Assembly: GCA_016212185.1 (NCBI GenBank)
Contig: JACRGX010000021.1
Location: 1 to 42,924 of the forward strand
DNA: 42,924 bases
Origin: Nitrospirota bacterium
Lineage (GTDB): Bacteria > Nitrospirota > Thermodesulfovibrionia > UBA6902 > DSMQ01
Direction of reading: 5' to 3'
A model generated the notes under the pieces. That model worked only from the letters and a program-made list of their open reading frames with translations, did no database searches and was not told the DNA's origin. The position numbers were made by a program, and so were the translations under genes. How positions within the stretch are numbered: position 1 is the first letter of the stretch; each line of letters opens with the position of its first letter. Below, one piece after another: positions 4,071-12,132 of the stretch.

Positions 4071-4601
4071 TTATTTAGTTTCTTTTTCACTTTTTCCACT
4101 TTCCAGTGGATAATTCTTTGTCTTTGGAGCATCTATTAATCCCTGCACATACTCAGCAGCAGGGTAATCCTTCTGCCAGCCAGCCATTCCTAAAAGCATC
4201 CCATATGCATCATATCCGAGCATTCTCATAGGCACTATAAGTAACGCCTCACTTGCACCCATGTGGCATACAAAAATTATTTTCTTATCTTTTGGAAGTT
4301 TCTGGAGGTTTTCGGGCTTAAATATCTCGTTGTACGGGATATATATAGCTCCAGGAATATGCGCTGCCTTGTATACATTAAGGGCATTTTCGCCAATCCT
4401 GACATCAACCGCTAAAAAATCAGTCTTTTTCATCTTCAACCACATATAAACATCATTTGCCCCTACAAAATAGTTTCCATTCTCTGGTCCCTGGCTTACT
4501 ACTGTGTCTATTTTTTTGACTAATTCTAAGTCATCAGCATAGGTTGGAAATGCTATTGCTATCACAAAAACCAGACAGAGTAAGATTTTGATTATTTTCA
4601 T
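4071..4601 (-). CDS. exported single-domain rhodanese
   Basis: This 176-residue protein has an N-terminal signal peptide (residues 1-22, F-P-T-Y-A-D-D) followed by one rhodanese domain. The domain shows D-V-R near residue 66, the A-A-H-I-P-G-A-I-Y-I-P box near 80, and a putative active-site loop C112-H-M-G-A-S-E in which the Cys would carry a persulfide. It most likely acts in the periplasm as a sulfurtransferase next to the YeeE/YedE transporter. A strong GGAGG precedes the start. The C-terminus is charged (K-S-E-K-E-T-K). The family assignment is firm; donor and acceptor are unknown. Confidence 0.85.
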   Translation of the reverse strand: MKIIKILLCLVFVIAIAFPTYADDLELVKKIDTVVSQGPENGNYFVGANDVYMWLKMKKTDFLAVDVRIGENALNVYKAAHIPGAIYIPYNEIFKPENLQKLPKDKKIIFVCHMGASEALLIVPMRMLGYDAYGMLLGMAGWQKDYPAAEYVQGLIDAPKTKNYPLESGKSEKETK

Positions 4602-5117: not shown

Positions 5118-6401
5118 TTAATCTGCGACTTTCTTGCCTGTCTCAACAGGCAGGGTCTCGTCATTGCCCCAGACAATCCAGCTATCATGGTAAATAGCAG
5201 GGTCTTTGAAGCCAAGCAGCCTGAGCACAAAGTAAGAGAACGAAATACGGTTTGCTATGTAACAATAAAGCACCGTCCTCTTGTCTTTGTCCAAACCACC
5301 GTAAAGTCTTTGAAGCTGGTATATCGGCCTGAGTTTAGCAGTCTGCGGGTCTATAAATTGATAAAAATGTGGGACATTCCGTATTGTATTTGGTATACGG
5401 CCCGCCCTCTTTATCTTATCAGCTAAAAAATGTCCCGGAGGGGTCGGAGATTCCCCCAGATATTCGGCTATGGTCCTGCTGTCAATGAGCTGGGCGTCTT
5501 CTTCTTTCTTTGCTATTTTCAGAACTTCCTCAGTAGTTGCAAGCCTGCTTTTTACCACATCCGCTTTAAACTGCACCGGTGTAAGCTTATTCGTCTTCTG
5601 CTCCAGCGGCTTGCCCCCCGCTGTCCATATTCCAATGCCGCCGTCAAGCACACGGACATCCTTATGCCCTAAATACTCCATATACCAGAACGGAACAAAA
5701 ACATACCCTGAAAAGATGCCGTAATATCTGCCCCTTCCAGCTTCATCCGAATTTTCCCTTTGATCGTAAAATACAAGTGTTTTATCGCGGGTGATTCCAA
5801 TCCTGCCAAGCTTTTTCTCAAGATTTTCCACTTGTCCCAGCGCTAAATCTTTTAACAACCCGCTTCTGGTCCCGGAATTCATCACGGTTGTCTTCGGACT
5901 AACTGTCCCTCCGTATCCTGCTGCAGGTGCATAGCCAGGCGCGCTTCCATAACCAGGCGCAGCCGCCTCCTGCTTTCTCTCCCCTGGCTCCTGAGACCTG
6001 TCCGTTATTCCTTTTATTTCCAGATCATCTCTGAAAAAATCGTTGCAGGTTTCACCGAGATGTATTGCCGTAGGGATATGGCCTTCATCATATAAATCTT
6101 TTGGACGGCAATCAACCACTATCCACATACCGAGGCTCTTTTCTAATTCTTCAGGTTGTGTCAGCAGGTACAGGTTCATCTTTTTCAGTGTCTTTTCCTC
6201 CTCTGGCGTGGCAGGTGAGCCTACATACTCAAGAAGTGGTGTTCTTGGACTACCTGCGCCGCCATACCCGGCAGCGGCAGCTTGATGTGTTTGTTCCTTT
6301 GACCCTTCGGGTATGCCTGTCTGGCTGTAAACCACTAAGAACCCGAGAATAACTGCAACTCCCCCTATTATTACTCCTTTTATTGTCTGCTGAGAATTCA
6401 T
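5118..6401 (-). CDS. membrane-anchored tandem rhodanese (thiosulfate sulfurtransferase type)
   Basis: The 427-residue protein has one N-terminal membrane anchor (residues 9-26) and two rhodanese domains facing the periplasm. The first (about 90-270) has D-C-R-P and G-H-I-P-T-A-I but no catalytic loop Cys. The second (about 295-425) has the active-site C380-Y-I-A-N-R. Two Gly/Ala/Tyr-rich stretches (41-53 and 146-171) share the pattern A-A-G-Y-G-G-x-x-S-P-[RK]-T; the second interrupts the first rhodanese domain. Its ribosome site is AGGAGGG. It lies between the RND transporter and the other rhodanese, which suggests persulfide relay at the outer face of the cytoplasmic membrane. Confidence 0.85.
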   Translation of the reverse strand: MNSQQTIKGVIIGGVAVILGFLVVYSQTGIPEGSKEQTHQAAAAGYGGAGSPRTPLLEYVGSPATPEEEKTLKKMNLYLLTQPEELEKSLGMWIVVDCRPKDLYDEGHIPTAIHLGETCNDFFRDDLEIKGITDRSQEPGERKQEAAAPGYGSAPGYAPAAGYGGTVSPKTTVMNSGTRSGLLKDLALGQVENLEKKLGRIGITRDKTLVFYDQRENSDEAGRGRYYGIFSGYVFVPFWYMEYLGHKDVRVLDGGIGIWTAGGKPLEQKTNKLTPVQFKADVVKSRLATTEEVLKIAKKEEDAQLIDSRTIAEYLGESPTPPGHFLADKIKRAGRIPNTIRNVPHFYQFIDPQTAKLRPIYQLQRLYGGLDKDKRTVLYCYIANRISFSYFVLRLLGFKDPAIYHDSWIVWGNDETLPVETGKKVAD

Positions 6402-8984: not shown

Positions 8985-9311
8985 TTACTTGCCGGACAAT
9001 CTCCTTGCTATCCTGCCTCCTTCCTTAAACCTCTCAAGCAGCACCTCTCTCATAAGGCTGCAGGCCTTTATCACCTTAGGATTGGAAATTTTATAAAAAA
9101 TGTTGTTCCCGTTCCTCTGTGACGTCAGAATGCCTTTCTGTCTCATAACGGCAAGGTGCTGTGAGACGTTTGCCGGAGCTATACCGAGCACAGCTACAAG
9201 CTGACTGACGCTTAATTCTCTGTTTCCGAGAGCGTTAAGGATTTCAATCCTTTTGGAATTTCCCAGTGTTTTACATATGTCGGCGTGTATCTCTGAGATT
9301 TTTTTGTTCAT
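8985..9311 (-). CDS. ArsR-family transcriptional regulator
   Basis: The 108-residue protein has a winged helix-turn-helix: helix-turn-helix around residues 33-58 with S-V-S-Q-L-V-A-V-L-G-I-A-P-A-N-V-S-Q-H-L, wing around 60-75. Two cysteines are present, C13 in the first helix and C84 in the last. A pair of distant cysteines that oxidise or bridge via polysulfide is how the sulfide-responsive SqrR/BigR members sense, so a sulfur-responsive repressor is plausible but unproved. The ATG is two bases from the upstream stop codon; AGG of the preceding reading frame may serve as ribosome site. The operator-like array lies immediately downstream, before the RND gene. Confidence 0.87.
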   Translation of the reverse strand: MNKKISEIHADICKTLGNSKRIEILNALGNRELSVSQLVAVLGIAPANVSQHLAVMRQKGILTSQRNGNNIFYKISNPKVIKACSLMREVLLERFKEGGRIARRLSGK

Positions 9312-9953: not shown

Positions 9954-10376
9954 TTAAAACGTCAAATTCATATCCGCCTTAATAACTATATCCTTATAAT
10001 ACGTAGCCGGACTGGCTATTTCAACACCGTCAACAAAATCTTCTTCCTTCATATTAAACAGCGGCACATTCAAGGGACAGGCAAGCAGCCTCGCTCCCTC
10101 CTTGTAGAGCATGAAAAGTAAATCTTCCGCCGTCGGGAGGTTCATATCCTCCATCCTCTTCATAACGGCATCGCTTTCTTCTTTGGGCTGGTCCGGCATG
10201 CAAACAAGTTTATTTACCTTGTCCTTATGAAGGGCGTTGACCCCGCGCGACCCAAAAAAGATTGTGACCTTAGACCCCTCTTTCAAGAGACTGTATGCGG
10301 TCATAAGCGCATTATAGACCTGACACAACTCGTCATGAAAACACATCACCGAAACGTTTTTAGTTATTTTTTCCAT
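9954..10376 (-). CDS. DsrE-like sulfur relay protein
   Basis: The 140-residue cytosolic protein fits the DsrE/DsrF-like fold: beta-strand V-S-V-M-C-F-H near the start, helix Q-V-Y-N-A-L-M-T-A-Y, strand K-V-T-I-F-F-G-S-R-G, then a region with E-D-L-L-F-M-L-Y-K-E-G and C100-P-L-N. Cysteines at 12, 18, 59 and 100 are candidates for persulfide carriage; C100 is near the usual active Cys of this family. An ACGGAGG ribosome site precedes the ATG. Its neighbours (TauE permease, rhodaneses, YeeE) point to intracellular sulfur trafficking. Which DsrE subfamily it belongs to cannot be settled by eye. Confidence 0.8.
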   Translation of the reverse strand: MEKITKNVSVMCFHDELCQVYNALMTAYSLLKEGSKVTIFFGSRGVNALHKDKVNKLVCMPDQPKEESDAVMKRMEDMNLPTAEDLLFMLYKEGARLLACPLNVPLFNMKEEDFVDGVEIASPATYYKDIVIKADMNLTF

Positions 10377-10434: not shown

Positions 10435-11223
10435 TTATTGTCCTGTCAATACCTGACACCACATCCTCAGCCCTGTGATTGCAATAATTATTGCAATAAT
10501 CATCCTGAGGTGCTTGGTATTGACCTTTTTGCTTATGTTTCCTCCGATCTGAGCCCCGGGAACCGTGCCAATCACAAGGGCTATCGCATAGGGCCAGATT
10601 ATCTGCCCGGTTGCAAGTTTGCCGATAGTGCCTGTAACAGCGCCCATGAACACAACCCCGAGCATACTGCCTATTACAATGCGGGTTGGAATATTCAGAA
10701 AATATATCATAGCAGGGATATAGATGAATGCGCCTGGCGCTCCGACCATGCCTCCGAATGTACCTATTGCAAGGCTTATCAATGAAGCATGAAGCTTGTT
10801 ATATTTAACATCCTCTGGCAAAATGTTCTCACCCTGCTCACGTCTCGGGATAAACATGACTATCGCCGCAATAACAGCCATTGTCGCAAATACGGCTAAA
10901 AGGAAAGTGCTTTTTGTGTATTTTGAAAGCAGGGAGCCTGCAAGGTTTCCAACGGCATTGCAGAGCCCCATATACAAAAGAATGGATTTGCTGACAAAAC
11001 GGTTTTTGTGATGAACAATCAGCCCGGACAAAGATGCGGAAAGAACCTGCACCATGCTTACGGCAGCCACCTCTTTCATATCCAGAAGTCCGACGCCTAA
11101 AAGCGGCGGGACATAAAGCAGAAGCGGTATCATGAAAATAGCGCCTCCAAGCCCGAGCAGTCCTGACAGGAAACCGCCGCCGAGTCCGAGAAGAACGAGT
11201 GTAATTAAAAATGGTATATCCAT
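10435..11223 (-). CDS. TauE/SafE-family permease
   Basis: The 262-residue protein has about eight membrane helices arranged as two homologous halves. Each half starts with the family's glycine-rich box: G-G-G-F-L-S-G-L-L-G-L-G-G near residue 15 and F-G-G-M-V-G-A-P-G-A near 155. TauE/SafE (DUF81) proteins move sulfite, sulfonates and similar anions. Here it stands between the candidate selenothioredoxin and the dsrE-like gene, in line with sulfur oxyanion export or uptake. GGGG precedes the ATG. Direction and substrate are not evident. Confidence 0.87.
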   Translation of the reverse strand: MDIPFLITLVLLGLGGGFLSGLLGLGGAIFMIPLLLYVPPLLGVGLLDMKEVAAVSMVQVLSASLSGLIVHHKNRFVSKSILLYMGLCNAVGNLAGSLLSKYTKSTFLLAVFATMAVIAAIVMFIPRREQGENILPEDVKYNKLHASLISLAIGTFGGMVGAPGAFIYIPAMIYFLNIPTRIVIGSMLGVVFMGAVTGTIGKLATGQIIWPYAIALVIGTVPGAQIGGNISKKVNTKHLRMIIAIIIAITGLRMWCQVLTGQ

Positions 11224-11320: not shown

Positions 11321-11371
11321 TTTTTTGAAAACACAAAGTTTTCCTCTGTGTTAATCTGTGTAAATCTGTGG

Positions 11372-11626
11372 CTAATATTTTTTCTCTATCTCCGCCTTTA
11401 GTTCTTCATAAGTAACTGTCCCGTTGTTTGCCAGCACTCTGTCGTTCAGCACAACAGACGGACACGGCAAGGGGTTATTTTCCATTTTATATTCATCCGA
11501 TGTCTTTTTAATTACAATAATCTCTGCGCCAAGCTCTTTTTCCGCCCACCGGGCGGCTTCGGTGTTCTGCTGTCACCTCTTGCCCCTCGGCTCATTGACA
11601 TATAGCTTAACAACATTTTTTTTCAT
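11372..11626 (-). CDS. candidate selenocysteine-containing thioredoxin-fold protein (in-frame TGA)
   Basis: From the ATG at 11626 (AGGAGG just upstream) an 84-residue frame runs to TAG at 11372, broken only by a TGA at codon 18 (11575-11573). Both sides of the TGA belong to one thioredoxin-like fold in the same frame: strand V-V-K-L-Y-V, then G-K-R-U-Q-Q-N at the active-site position, helix T-E-A-A-R-W-A-E-K-E-L, strand E-I-I-V-I, cis-Pro loop P-C-P-S-V-V-L-N-D-R-V-L, and a final helix. Sixteen bases after the TGA lies a perfect hairpin with a GGT loop, as bacterial SECIS elements require. I infer Sec insertion. The motif U-x-x-N lacks a resolving Cys at the fourth position; C56 before the cis-Pro might serve. 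The alternative is a Cys-to-stop mutation. Genes for Sec synthesis are not in the window. Confidence 0.72.
11542..11556 (-). promoter_or_regulatory. SECIS-like stem-loop after the in-frame TGA
   Basis: In the minus-strand mRNA the perfect 6-bp stem CCGCCC/GGGCGG closes a GGU loop. The stem begins 16 bases after the UGA and the loop 22 bases after it, close to the geometry of the E. coli fdhF SECIS, whose apical loop is GGUC. No other GC-rich perfect hairpin is seen in this AT-rich spacer. Confidence 0.65.
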
Positions 11627-11640
11627 CACTGCCTCCTTTT

Positions 11641-11756
11641 TATTCTTCAGCCGCAGATTTACGCAGATTTTTTTAATCTGTATTTTCTCTCTGTGTTTTC
11701 AGTGTTAATCCGTGCCAATCTGTGGCTAAATTTAGTTATGTTTTTCTCTGTGTTTA
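11641..11756. repeat. CTGTG/ACACAG word repeat spacer
   Basis: The spacer between the arsR-like gene and the candidate selenoprotein gene consists of repeated words (GCAGATTT, CTCTGTGTTT, AGTGTTAATC, AATCTGTGGCTAAAT). The phrase AATCTGTGGCTAA also occurs at 11364-11376, so near-direct repeats flank the selenoprotein gene on both sides. Confidence 0.5.
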
Positions 11757-11763
11757 AATAATT

Positions 11764-12132
11764 TTATCTTTTACGGTTACCGGGATAAGTCCCCTTTTTT
11801 GTTATCGGACAGCATTTAGGTCTTGGCAATTCATCGGGATAATCTTTTTTGAGCAGTTCAATTAAATCTGGTATTATCGGATTTATTAAAAAGTAGCACC
11901 TCAATCTTCCGTCAACATAATAATCAATAAGTCCGGCATGTCTTAATGCCGCAAGGTGCTGTGAAACATTCGGCTGGCTGATTTCTCTGCCAAATGCAGA
12001 TCCGCCTTTGGCGGAAAGGAATGTTGTAAAATCACTGACGCACTTCACGCCGTTCTGAAGTTCCTCAAGTATGGCTATTCTCACCGGATGCGCAATAGCT
12101 TTAAGCGCCTCAATTTTTTGTGATTTTTCCAT
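11764..12132 (-). CDS. ArsR-family regulator with cysteine sensor residues
   Basis: The 122-residue winged-helix protein has the arsenic-type beginning (A-I-A-H-P-V-R-I-A-I-L-E-E-L) and the recognition helix around I-S-Q-P-N-V-S-Q-H-L-A-A-L-R-H-A-G. Cysteines occur at L-Q-N-G-V-K-C31-V, at C79, and as C109-C110 near the C-terminus. Several thiols could bind a thiophilic metal, arsenite or a polysulfide. It is the first gene of the sulfur block and has its own near-consensus promoter with an inverted repeat across it (12138-12169), so autoregulation is likely. The -10 box lies only 8 bases from the ATG, so the message is probably leaderless. Confidence 0.87.
   Translation of the reverse strand: MEKSQKIEALKAIAHPVRIAILEELQNGVKCVSDFTTFLSAKGGSAFGREISQPNVSQHLAALRHAGLIDYYVDGRLRCYFLINPIIPDLIELLKKDYPDELPRPKCCPITKKGTYPGNRKR

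Follow-up and report, generated by a model that had tools for sequence, protein, structure and literature searches.

A review that gives the TsoC motif as GxxU (PMC13188914) reports a Tso operon and credits Haft and Tolstoy 2025 with the TsoC family of selenoproteins. Tso goes unmentioned in the main text of the deep-Sep paper (PMC12013277), and no function for the TsoC family was found in the literature examined. SoxR of Hyphomicrobium denitrificans is described as an ArsR-type protein that senses sulfane sulfur and controls sulfur genes (PMC10451225). Here we analysed a 42,924-nucleotide contig of a Nitrospirota bacterium (the window), which encodes an 84-residue protein with features of these systems. 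It resembles the MTH895/ArsE family (TIGR00412; structure 1ilo) in its small thioredoxin fold, in its best structural match and in a weak profile match. Members of that family carry CxxC, whereas the window protein has GxxU and, with 18.7 bits, falls well short of the family cut-off of 62.

Scored with Cys in place of Sec, the window protein matched the NCBIfam model NF045708 ('NEPxGxxU motif selenoprotein TsoC') with an E value of 4.1e-11 and 42.7 bits, below the curated equivalog cut-off of 45 bits. It has the TsoC motif in the form NEPRGKRU, and also shares with TsoC a single Sec at the same column, a similar length and an ArsR gene nearby; it differs in its score below the cut-off and in its position in a separate clade (clade B, support 94/90), of which all 16 members tested match NF045708. 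In the source genome TsoA was not matched at all and TsoB did not exceed its cut-off, so that the window gene differs from TsoC in this respect too and the three-selenoprotein operon with TsoA and TsoB was not found there. TsoA was also unseen in G167, a genome with TsoB and TsoC, which implies that the TsoA search may be weak. Given the narrow miss of the cut-off and the failure to find TsoA and TsoB at theirs, the window gene is best called a member of a TsoC-like sister clade, TsoC itself being already described. Clade B, present in 30 genomes of one phylum, extends the TsoC selenoprotein family. Ordinary annotation would end the gene at its TGA and, since the window member lies just under the annotation cut-off, pipelines that apply this threshold are likely to overlook the gene or cut it short.

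Evidence for recoding of the in-frame TGA

The gene and the elements discussed in this and the following section are, in window coordinates:

11372..11626, minus strand: TsoC-like selenoprotein gene, coordinates including the stop codon; 84 codons, of which codon 18 specifies Sec (translation)
11632..11637, minus strand: ribosome binding site AGGAGG upstream of the ATG (sequence)
11573..11575, minus strand: in-frame UGA at codon 18, almost certainly read as selenocysteine (aligned rows: TGA in 42, Cys in 14)
11542..11556, minus strand: bacterial SECIS hairpin CCGCCC GGU GGGCGG, 16 nt past the UGA (fold and covariation)
11456..11464, minus strand: codons of the clade-invariant Cys55-Pro56-Ser57, in which Pro56 is the predicted cis-proline

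The minus-strand frame 11626..11372 translates to MKKNVVKLYVNEPRGKR-U18-QQNTEAARWAEKELGAEIIVIKKTSDEYKMENNPLPCPSVVLNDRVLANNGTVTYEELKAEIEKKY followed by an ordinary stop, and its sole interruption is the TGA at codon 18. A first-pass annotation of this DNA had described the 84-codon frame, its ribosome site and the single TGA, all of which we found in the sequence, and its description of a CCGCCC/GGGCGG hairpin with a GGU loop starting 16 bases past the UGA proved exact. Comparison with the sister genome, whose protein (L004) is 83% identical to the window protein, gave dN 0.10 and dS 0.88 before the TGA, and dN 0.10 and dS 0.59 after it. This purifying substitution implies that the stretch 3' of the UGA is constrained as protein. 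An assembly error, which had been named as a possible refutation, is excluded because the identical codon is TGA in dozens of other genomes. An altered genetic code was ruled out as well, since the full Sec machinery is present and long neighbouring genes lack internal TGA.

Within the class, 34 of the 230 genomes searched contained matches, and within the phylum an alignment-based search recovered matches from 44 of 396 genomes; one match, a 335-residue open frame in G048 (E 4e-4), was dropped as unrelated once aligned. Sequence searches of the PDB found no relative of the window protein. In the resulting tree of 56 rows, the aligned codon is TGA in 42 and Cys in 14, so both kinds of homologue whose absence had been named as a refutation were recovered, and the pairing of an in-frame UGA with Cys at one column is the pattern expected of a bacterial selenoprotein. 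The tree comprises canonical TsoC (group A), a group C whose cis-proline motif reads FP or LP, a small group with a Cys-rich tail, and clade B, to which the window belongs; its deep forks are uncertain, as the alignment holds only 88 columns. Clade B contains 32 rows, 25 with Sec and 7 with Cys, and the occurrence of both forms inside one clade permits a direct comparison of the benefit of selenium. All 32 rows have Cys-Pro-Ser (invariant in 16/16 in alignment A2), in contrast to canonical TsoC, which mostly has Ala before the cis-proline. Genes of clade B and group C lie near each other in G219 and G220.

Two peculiarities were seen among the other groups. The Cys-rich-tail proteins of G007, G015, G018 and G027 (L137, L135, L136 and L134) end in tails such as SCSCCCG, with Sec in three and Cys in one. 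The canonical TsoC of G081 (L052) continues in frame into a methyltransferase-like stretch, for a total of 310 residues, and methyltransferase-like genes stand near the tsoC-like gene in some other relatives.

Structure prediction gives the window hairpin a stem of six base pairs and a three-nucleotide loop. In the single sequence its energy is ordinary for the composition (z = -0.10), so that its significance derives from covariation across orthologues and not from energy. Among the 16 Sec members of clade B, compared with 500 shuffles, the stem was paired in 92.7% of cells (77.2% in shuffles), the covariation score was 0.383 (0.112 in shuffles) and 17 cells were doubly changed (6.7 in shuffles), with 3 of the 6 pairs altered on both sides; none of the 500 shuffles matched the paired fraction, the doubly changed cells or the covariation score. 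Two other measures, the count of pairs with changes in both partners and the count of further pair types, did not clearly exceed the shuffles. Sliding the partner strand by 1-3 bases left only 17-56% of cells paired, and we give this control the most weight because the shuffles ignore relatedness. Three pairs are invariant; two of them are dictated by conserved Ala codons, and the third, C-G in 16/16, links two third-codon positions and is less easily accounted for by protein coding. Cys members of clade B have weaker hairpins, with 3-5 of the 6 pairs, and A as first loop base, which is mostly G in the Sec members (loop exceptions UUC in G210 and UGC in G271). Thus, a conserved SECIS hairpin with compensatory changes lies shortly 3' of the UGA, as expected for a selenoprotein gene. 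An Rfam gathering search of the window and a search of the genome with RF00031 (SECIS_1) gave no match; RF00031 also missed all controls, and the Rfam blanks therefore do not count against a SECIS.

The source genome holds selA, selB, selD and tRNA-Sec, the complete set of four required for a bacterial selenoprotein, and the check for these genes that had been suggested at the outset thus found them all. The selB gene is a 644-residue open frame including the wing-helix domain, and the tRNA-Sec (selC) has the anticodon TCA. SelD is itself a selenoprotein (GGUAGK; L095, G000:C90:46473-47387); its UGA is followed by the hairpin AGGUCC-GGC-GGAUCU, which has a 6-bp stem and a 3-nt GGN loop, the same design as in the tsoC-like gene. 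Across the homologues, selB was present in 35/39 genomes with the Sec form and in 6/12 where only the Cys form was found; within clade B, the figures are 21/25 Sec genomes versus 0/5 Cys genomes. The five selB-less Cys genomes form one family and are not independent, so this pattern of Cys without selB may reflect one or few events. No selB hit was obtained in the Sec-member genomes G221, G291, G293 and G299, the last three of which are incomplete. On these comparative grounds, we consider it almost certain that the UGA is recoded as selenocysteine.

Predicted fold and active site

An AlphaFold model was built from two sequences, the window protein and L004, and this small input accounts for its moderate confidence (mean pLDDT 72.8). 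The predicted elements E5-10, H16-32, E35-40, H43-48, E57-60, E63-66 and H73-83 follow the thioredoxin order beta-alpha-beta-alpha-beta-beta-alpha, with Pro56 putatively in the cis state. The top matches among solved structures were thioredoxins, MtH895 first, with marginal E values of 0.002-0.01, and weak profile matches to Thioredoxin_3 and MTH895/ArsE were obtained. The model and the structure matches thus back the thioredoxin fold proposed earlier. The accompanying claim that the TGA occupies the redox position stands insofar as G15-K-R-U18 appears to lie on the CxxC site; the Thioredoxin_3 match appears to place Sec in the position of the second cysteine (GxxU), not the first.

The cis-proline of thioredoxins faces the active site. 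Cys55 directly precedes the predicted cis-proline, and in clade B it probably works with Sec18 as a putative redox pair; the model is weakest at residues 51-53, just ahead of Cys55.

Gene neighbourhood and proposed role

The tsoC-like gene lies among the following genes:

11764..12132, minus strand: ArsR1, an ArsR/SmtB-type repressor with four invariant cysteines, directly upstream (Pfam HTH_5)
10435..11223, minus strand: TauE/SafE-family exporter, directly downstream, a recurrent neighbour (Pfam PF01925, E 8.6e-46)
9954..10376, minus strand: DsrE2-like sulfur-carrier protein, a recurrent neighbour (Pfam PF13686)
8985..9311, minus strand: ArsR2, a second ArsR-type regulator (HTH_metalloreg; BigR E 5e-14 and TsoR E 4e-12, both below cut-off)
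5118..6401, minus strand: rhodanese protein with two matched stretches (Pfam PF00581)
4071..4601, minus strand: rhodanese-domain protein (Pfam PF00581)

The order in the window is ArsR1, tsoC-like gene, TauE, DsrE2, a membrane protein, ArsR2, RND, the two rhodanese genes and a sulfur transporter; Pfam matches bear out the TauE, DsrE, rhodaneses and two ArsR that the first-pass annotation had placed in this operon. TauE is the next gene in many genomes of clade B and group C. In other relatives, DsrE-family, TusC-like (TusC/DsrE) and TusB-like (TusB/DsrH) genes and an SQR-like FAD flavoprotein are found, followed by ArsR2, DsrE2 and an RND transporter; in the window, TauE and DsrE2 are the closest of the sulfur-related genes, and adjacency to the TusBC-like genes and the SQR-like protein is seen in relatives only. 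In G023 and G010 the gene is flanked by neither ArsR nor TauE. ArsR homologues recur upstream of the gene across genomes. The four Cys columns of the ArsR homologues upstream of tsoC-like genes are conserved in 24/24 aligned sequences. Like the ArsR-type sulfane-sulfur sensors (SoxR, BigR/SqrR type), the locus combines a cysteine-bearing ArsR repressor with sulfur genes, and both ArsR1 and ArsR2 weakly match BigR; they differ from it in lying far under the 155-bit cut-off, and ArsR1 has a four-cysteine pattern of its own.

Judged by neighbourhood and fold, the likeliest role lies in thiol/persulfide redox chemistry as part of sulfur handling, and the persulfide or sulfite chemistry proposed earlier is plausible in this gene context. 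The conserved neighbours thereby offer the TsoC family a testable sulfur hypothesis. From the sequence, the covariation and the machinery, we propose that SelB and Sec-tRNA would bind the hairpin past the UGA and insert Sec18 at the second CxxC position (GKRU), near the start of helix 1. Sec18 and Cys55 would form and then resolve a selenenyl-sulfide, while the protein accepts or reduces sulfur in the form of a persulfide, thiosulfonate or similar species. Electrons or sulfane sulfur might be handed to partners such as DsrE/Tus-type carriers and the SQR-like flavoprotein that relatives have next to the gene. Induction of the operon would fall to the upstream four-cysteine ArsR, and export of an oxidised sulfur product to TauE. 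In our estimate the chances are evenly balanced that all parts of this reading hold together, that is, an 84-residue thioredoxin-fold selenoprotein of the TsoC-sister clade with a recoded UGA and a sulfur redox role with partners. More tentatively, and rather against the balance of probability, the Cys-Pro-Ser clade could be a family separate from TsoC, in which a Sec18-Cys55 selenenyl-sulfide forms across the cleft and not within CxxC, and which would connect an SQR-like enzyme, Tus/DsrE carriers and export by passing on electrons or sulfane sulfur, with the four-cysteine ArsR as sensor.

The recoding could also be real and serve arsenic or metal chemistry, the four cysteines of ArsR1 serving to sense arsenite or a metal and the thioredoxin-like protein acting on thiol-bound arsenic. 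The weak MTH895/ArsE similarity, MtH895 as best structural match, the ArsR-family regulators and the invariant Cys pattern of ArsR1 are consistent with this reading; we nevertheless consider it unlikely, as the annotated recurrent neighbours include no arsenic gene, those that can be named are mostly sulfur genes, and the ArsE score is far under its cut-off. Alternatively, the selenoprotein might serve selenium metabolism, for instance by supplying SelD with selenium, and TauE might transport selenium oxyanions. A selD gene, recognised with a high score, near tsoC-like and TauE genes in G089, G090, G210 and G221 (L070, L071, L074 and L072) hints at such a link. Against it, Cys forms with a TauE neighbour persist in G249, G264 and G270, where selB is not detectable, the selD of the source genome lies on contig C90, away from the tsoC-like gene, and sulfur genes are the commoner neighbours, so that this role too seems improbable. 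That the TGA is a real stop, leaving a pseudogene, a sequencing error or a 17-residue peptide, is barely tenable: the unexceptional energy of the hairpin and the uninformative Rfam search would agree with it, but the TGA column shared by dozens of genomes, the purifying selection past the TGA, the covarying hairpin and the Cys of orthologues in selB-less genomes all contradict it.

The surroundings of the gene also contain repeated sequence. Repeat copies of roughly TTAATCTGTGTAAATCTGTGGCTAA lie on both sides of the tsoC-like gene (11345-11392 and 11699-11746), the upstream one between ArsR1 and the tsoC-like gene, and inverted copies of the flanking repeat occur at 11353-11373 and 11649-11669. 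In the sister locus L004, unlike the window, the ArsR stop overlaps the tsoC-like start. A perfect palindrome, TCCGCCTTTGGCGGA, at 12001-12015 falls within a ten-residue insertion of ArsR1, which no aligned ArsR protein has except those of the window and its sister.
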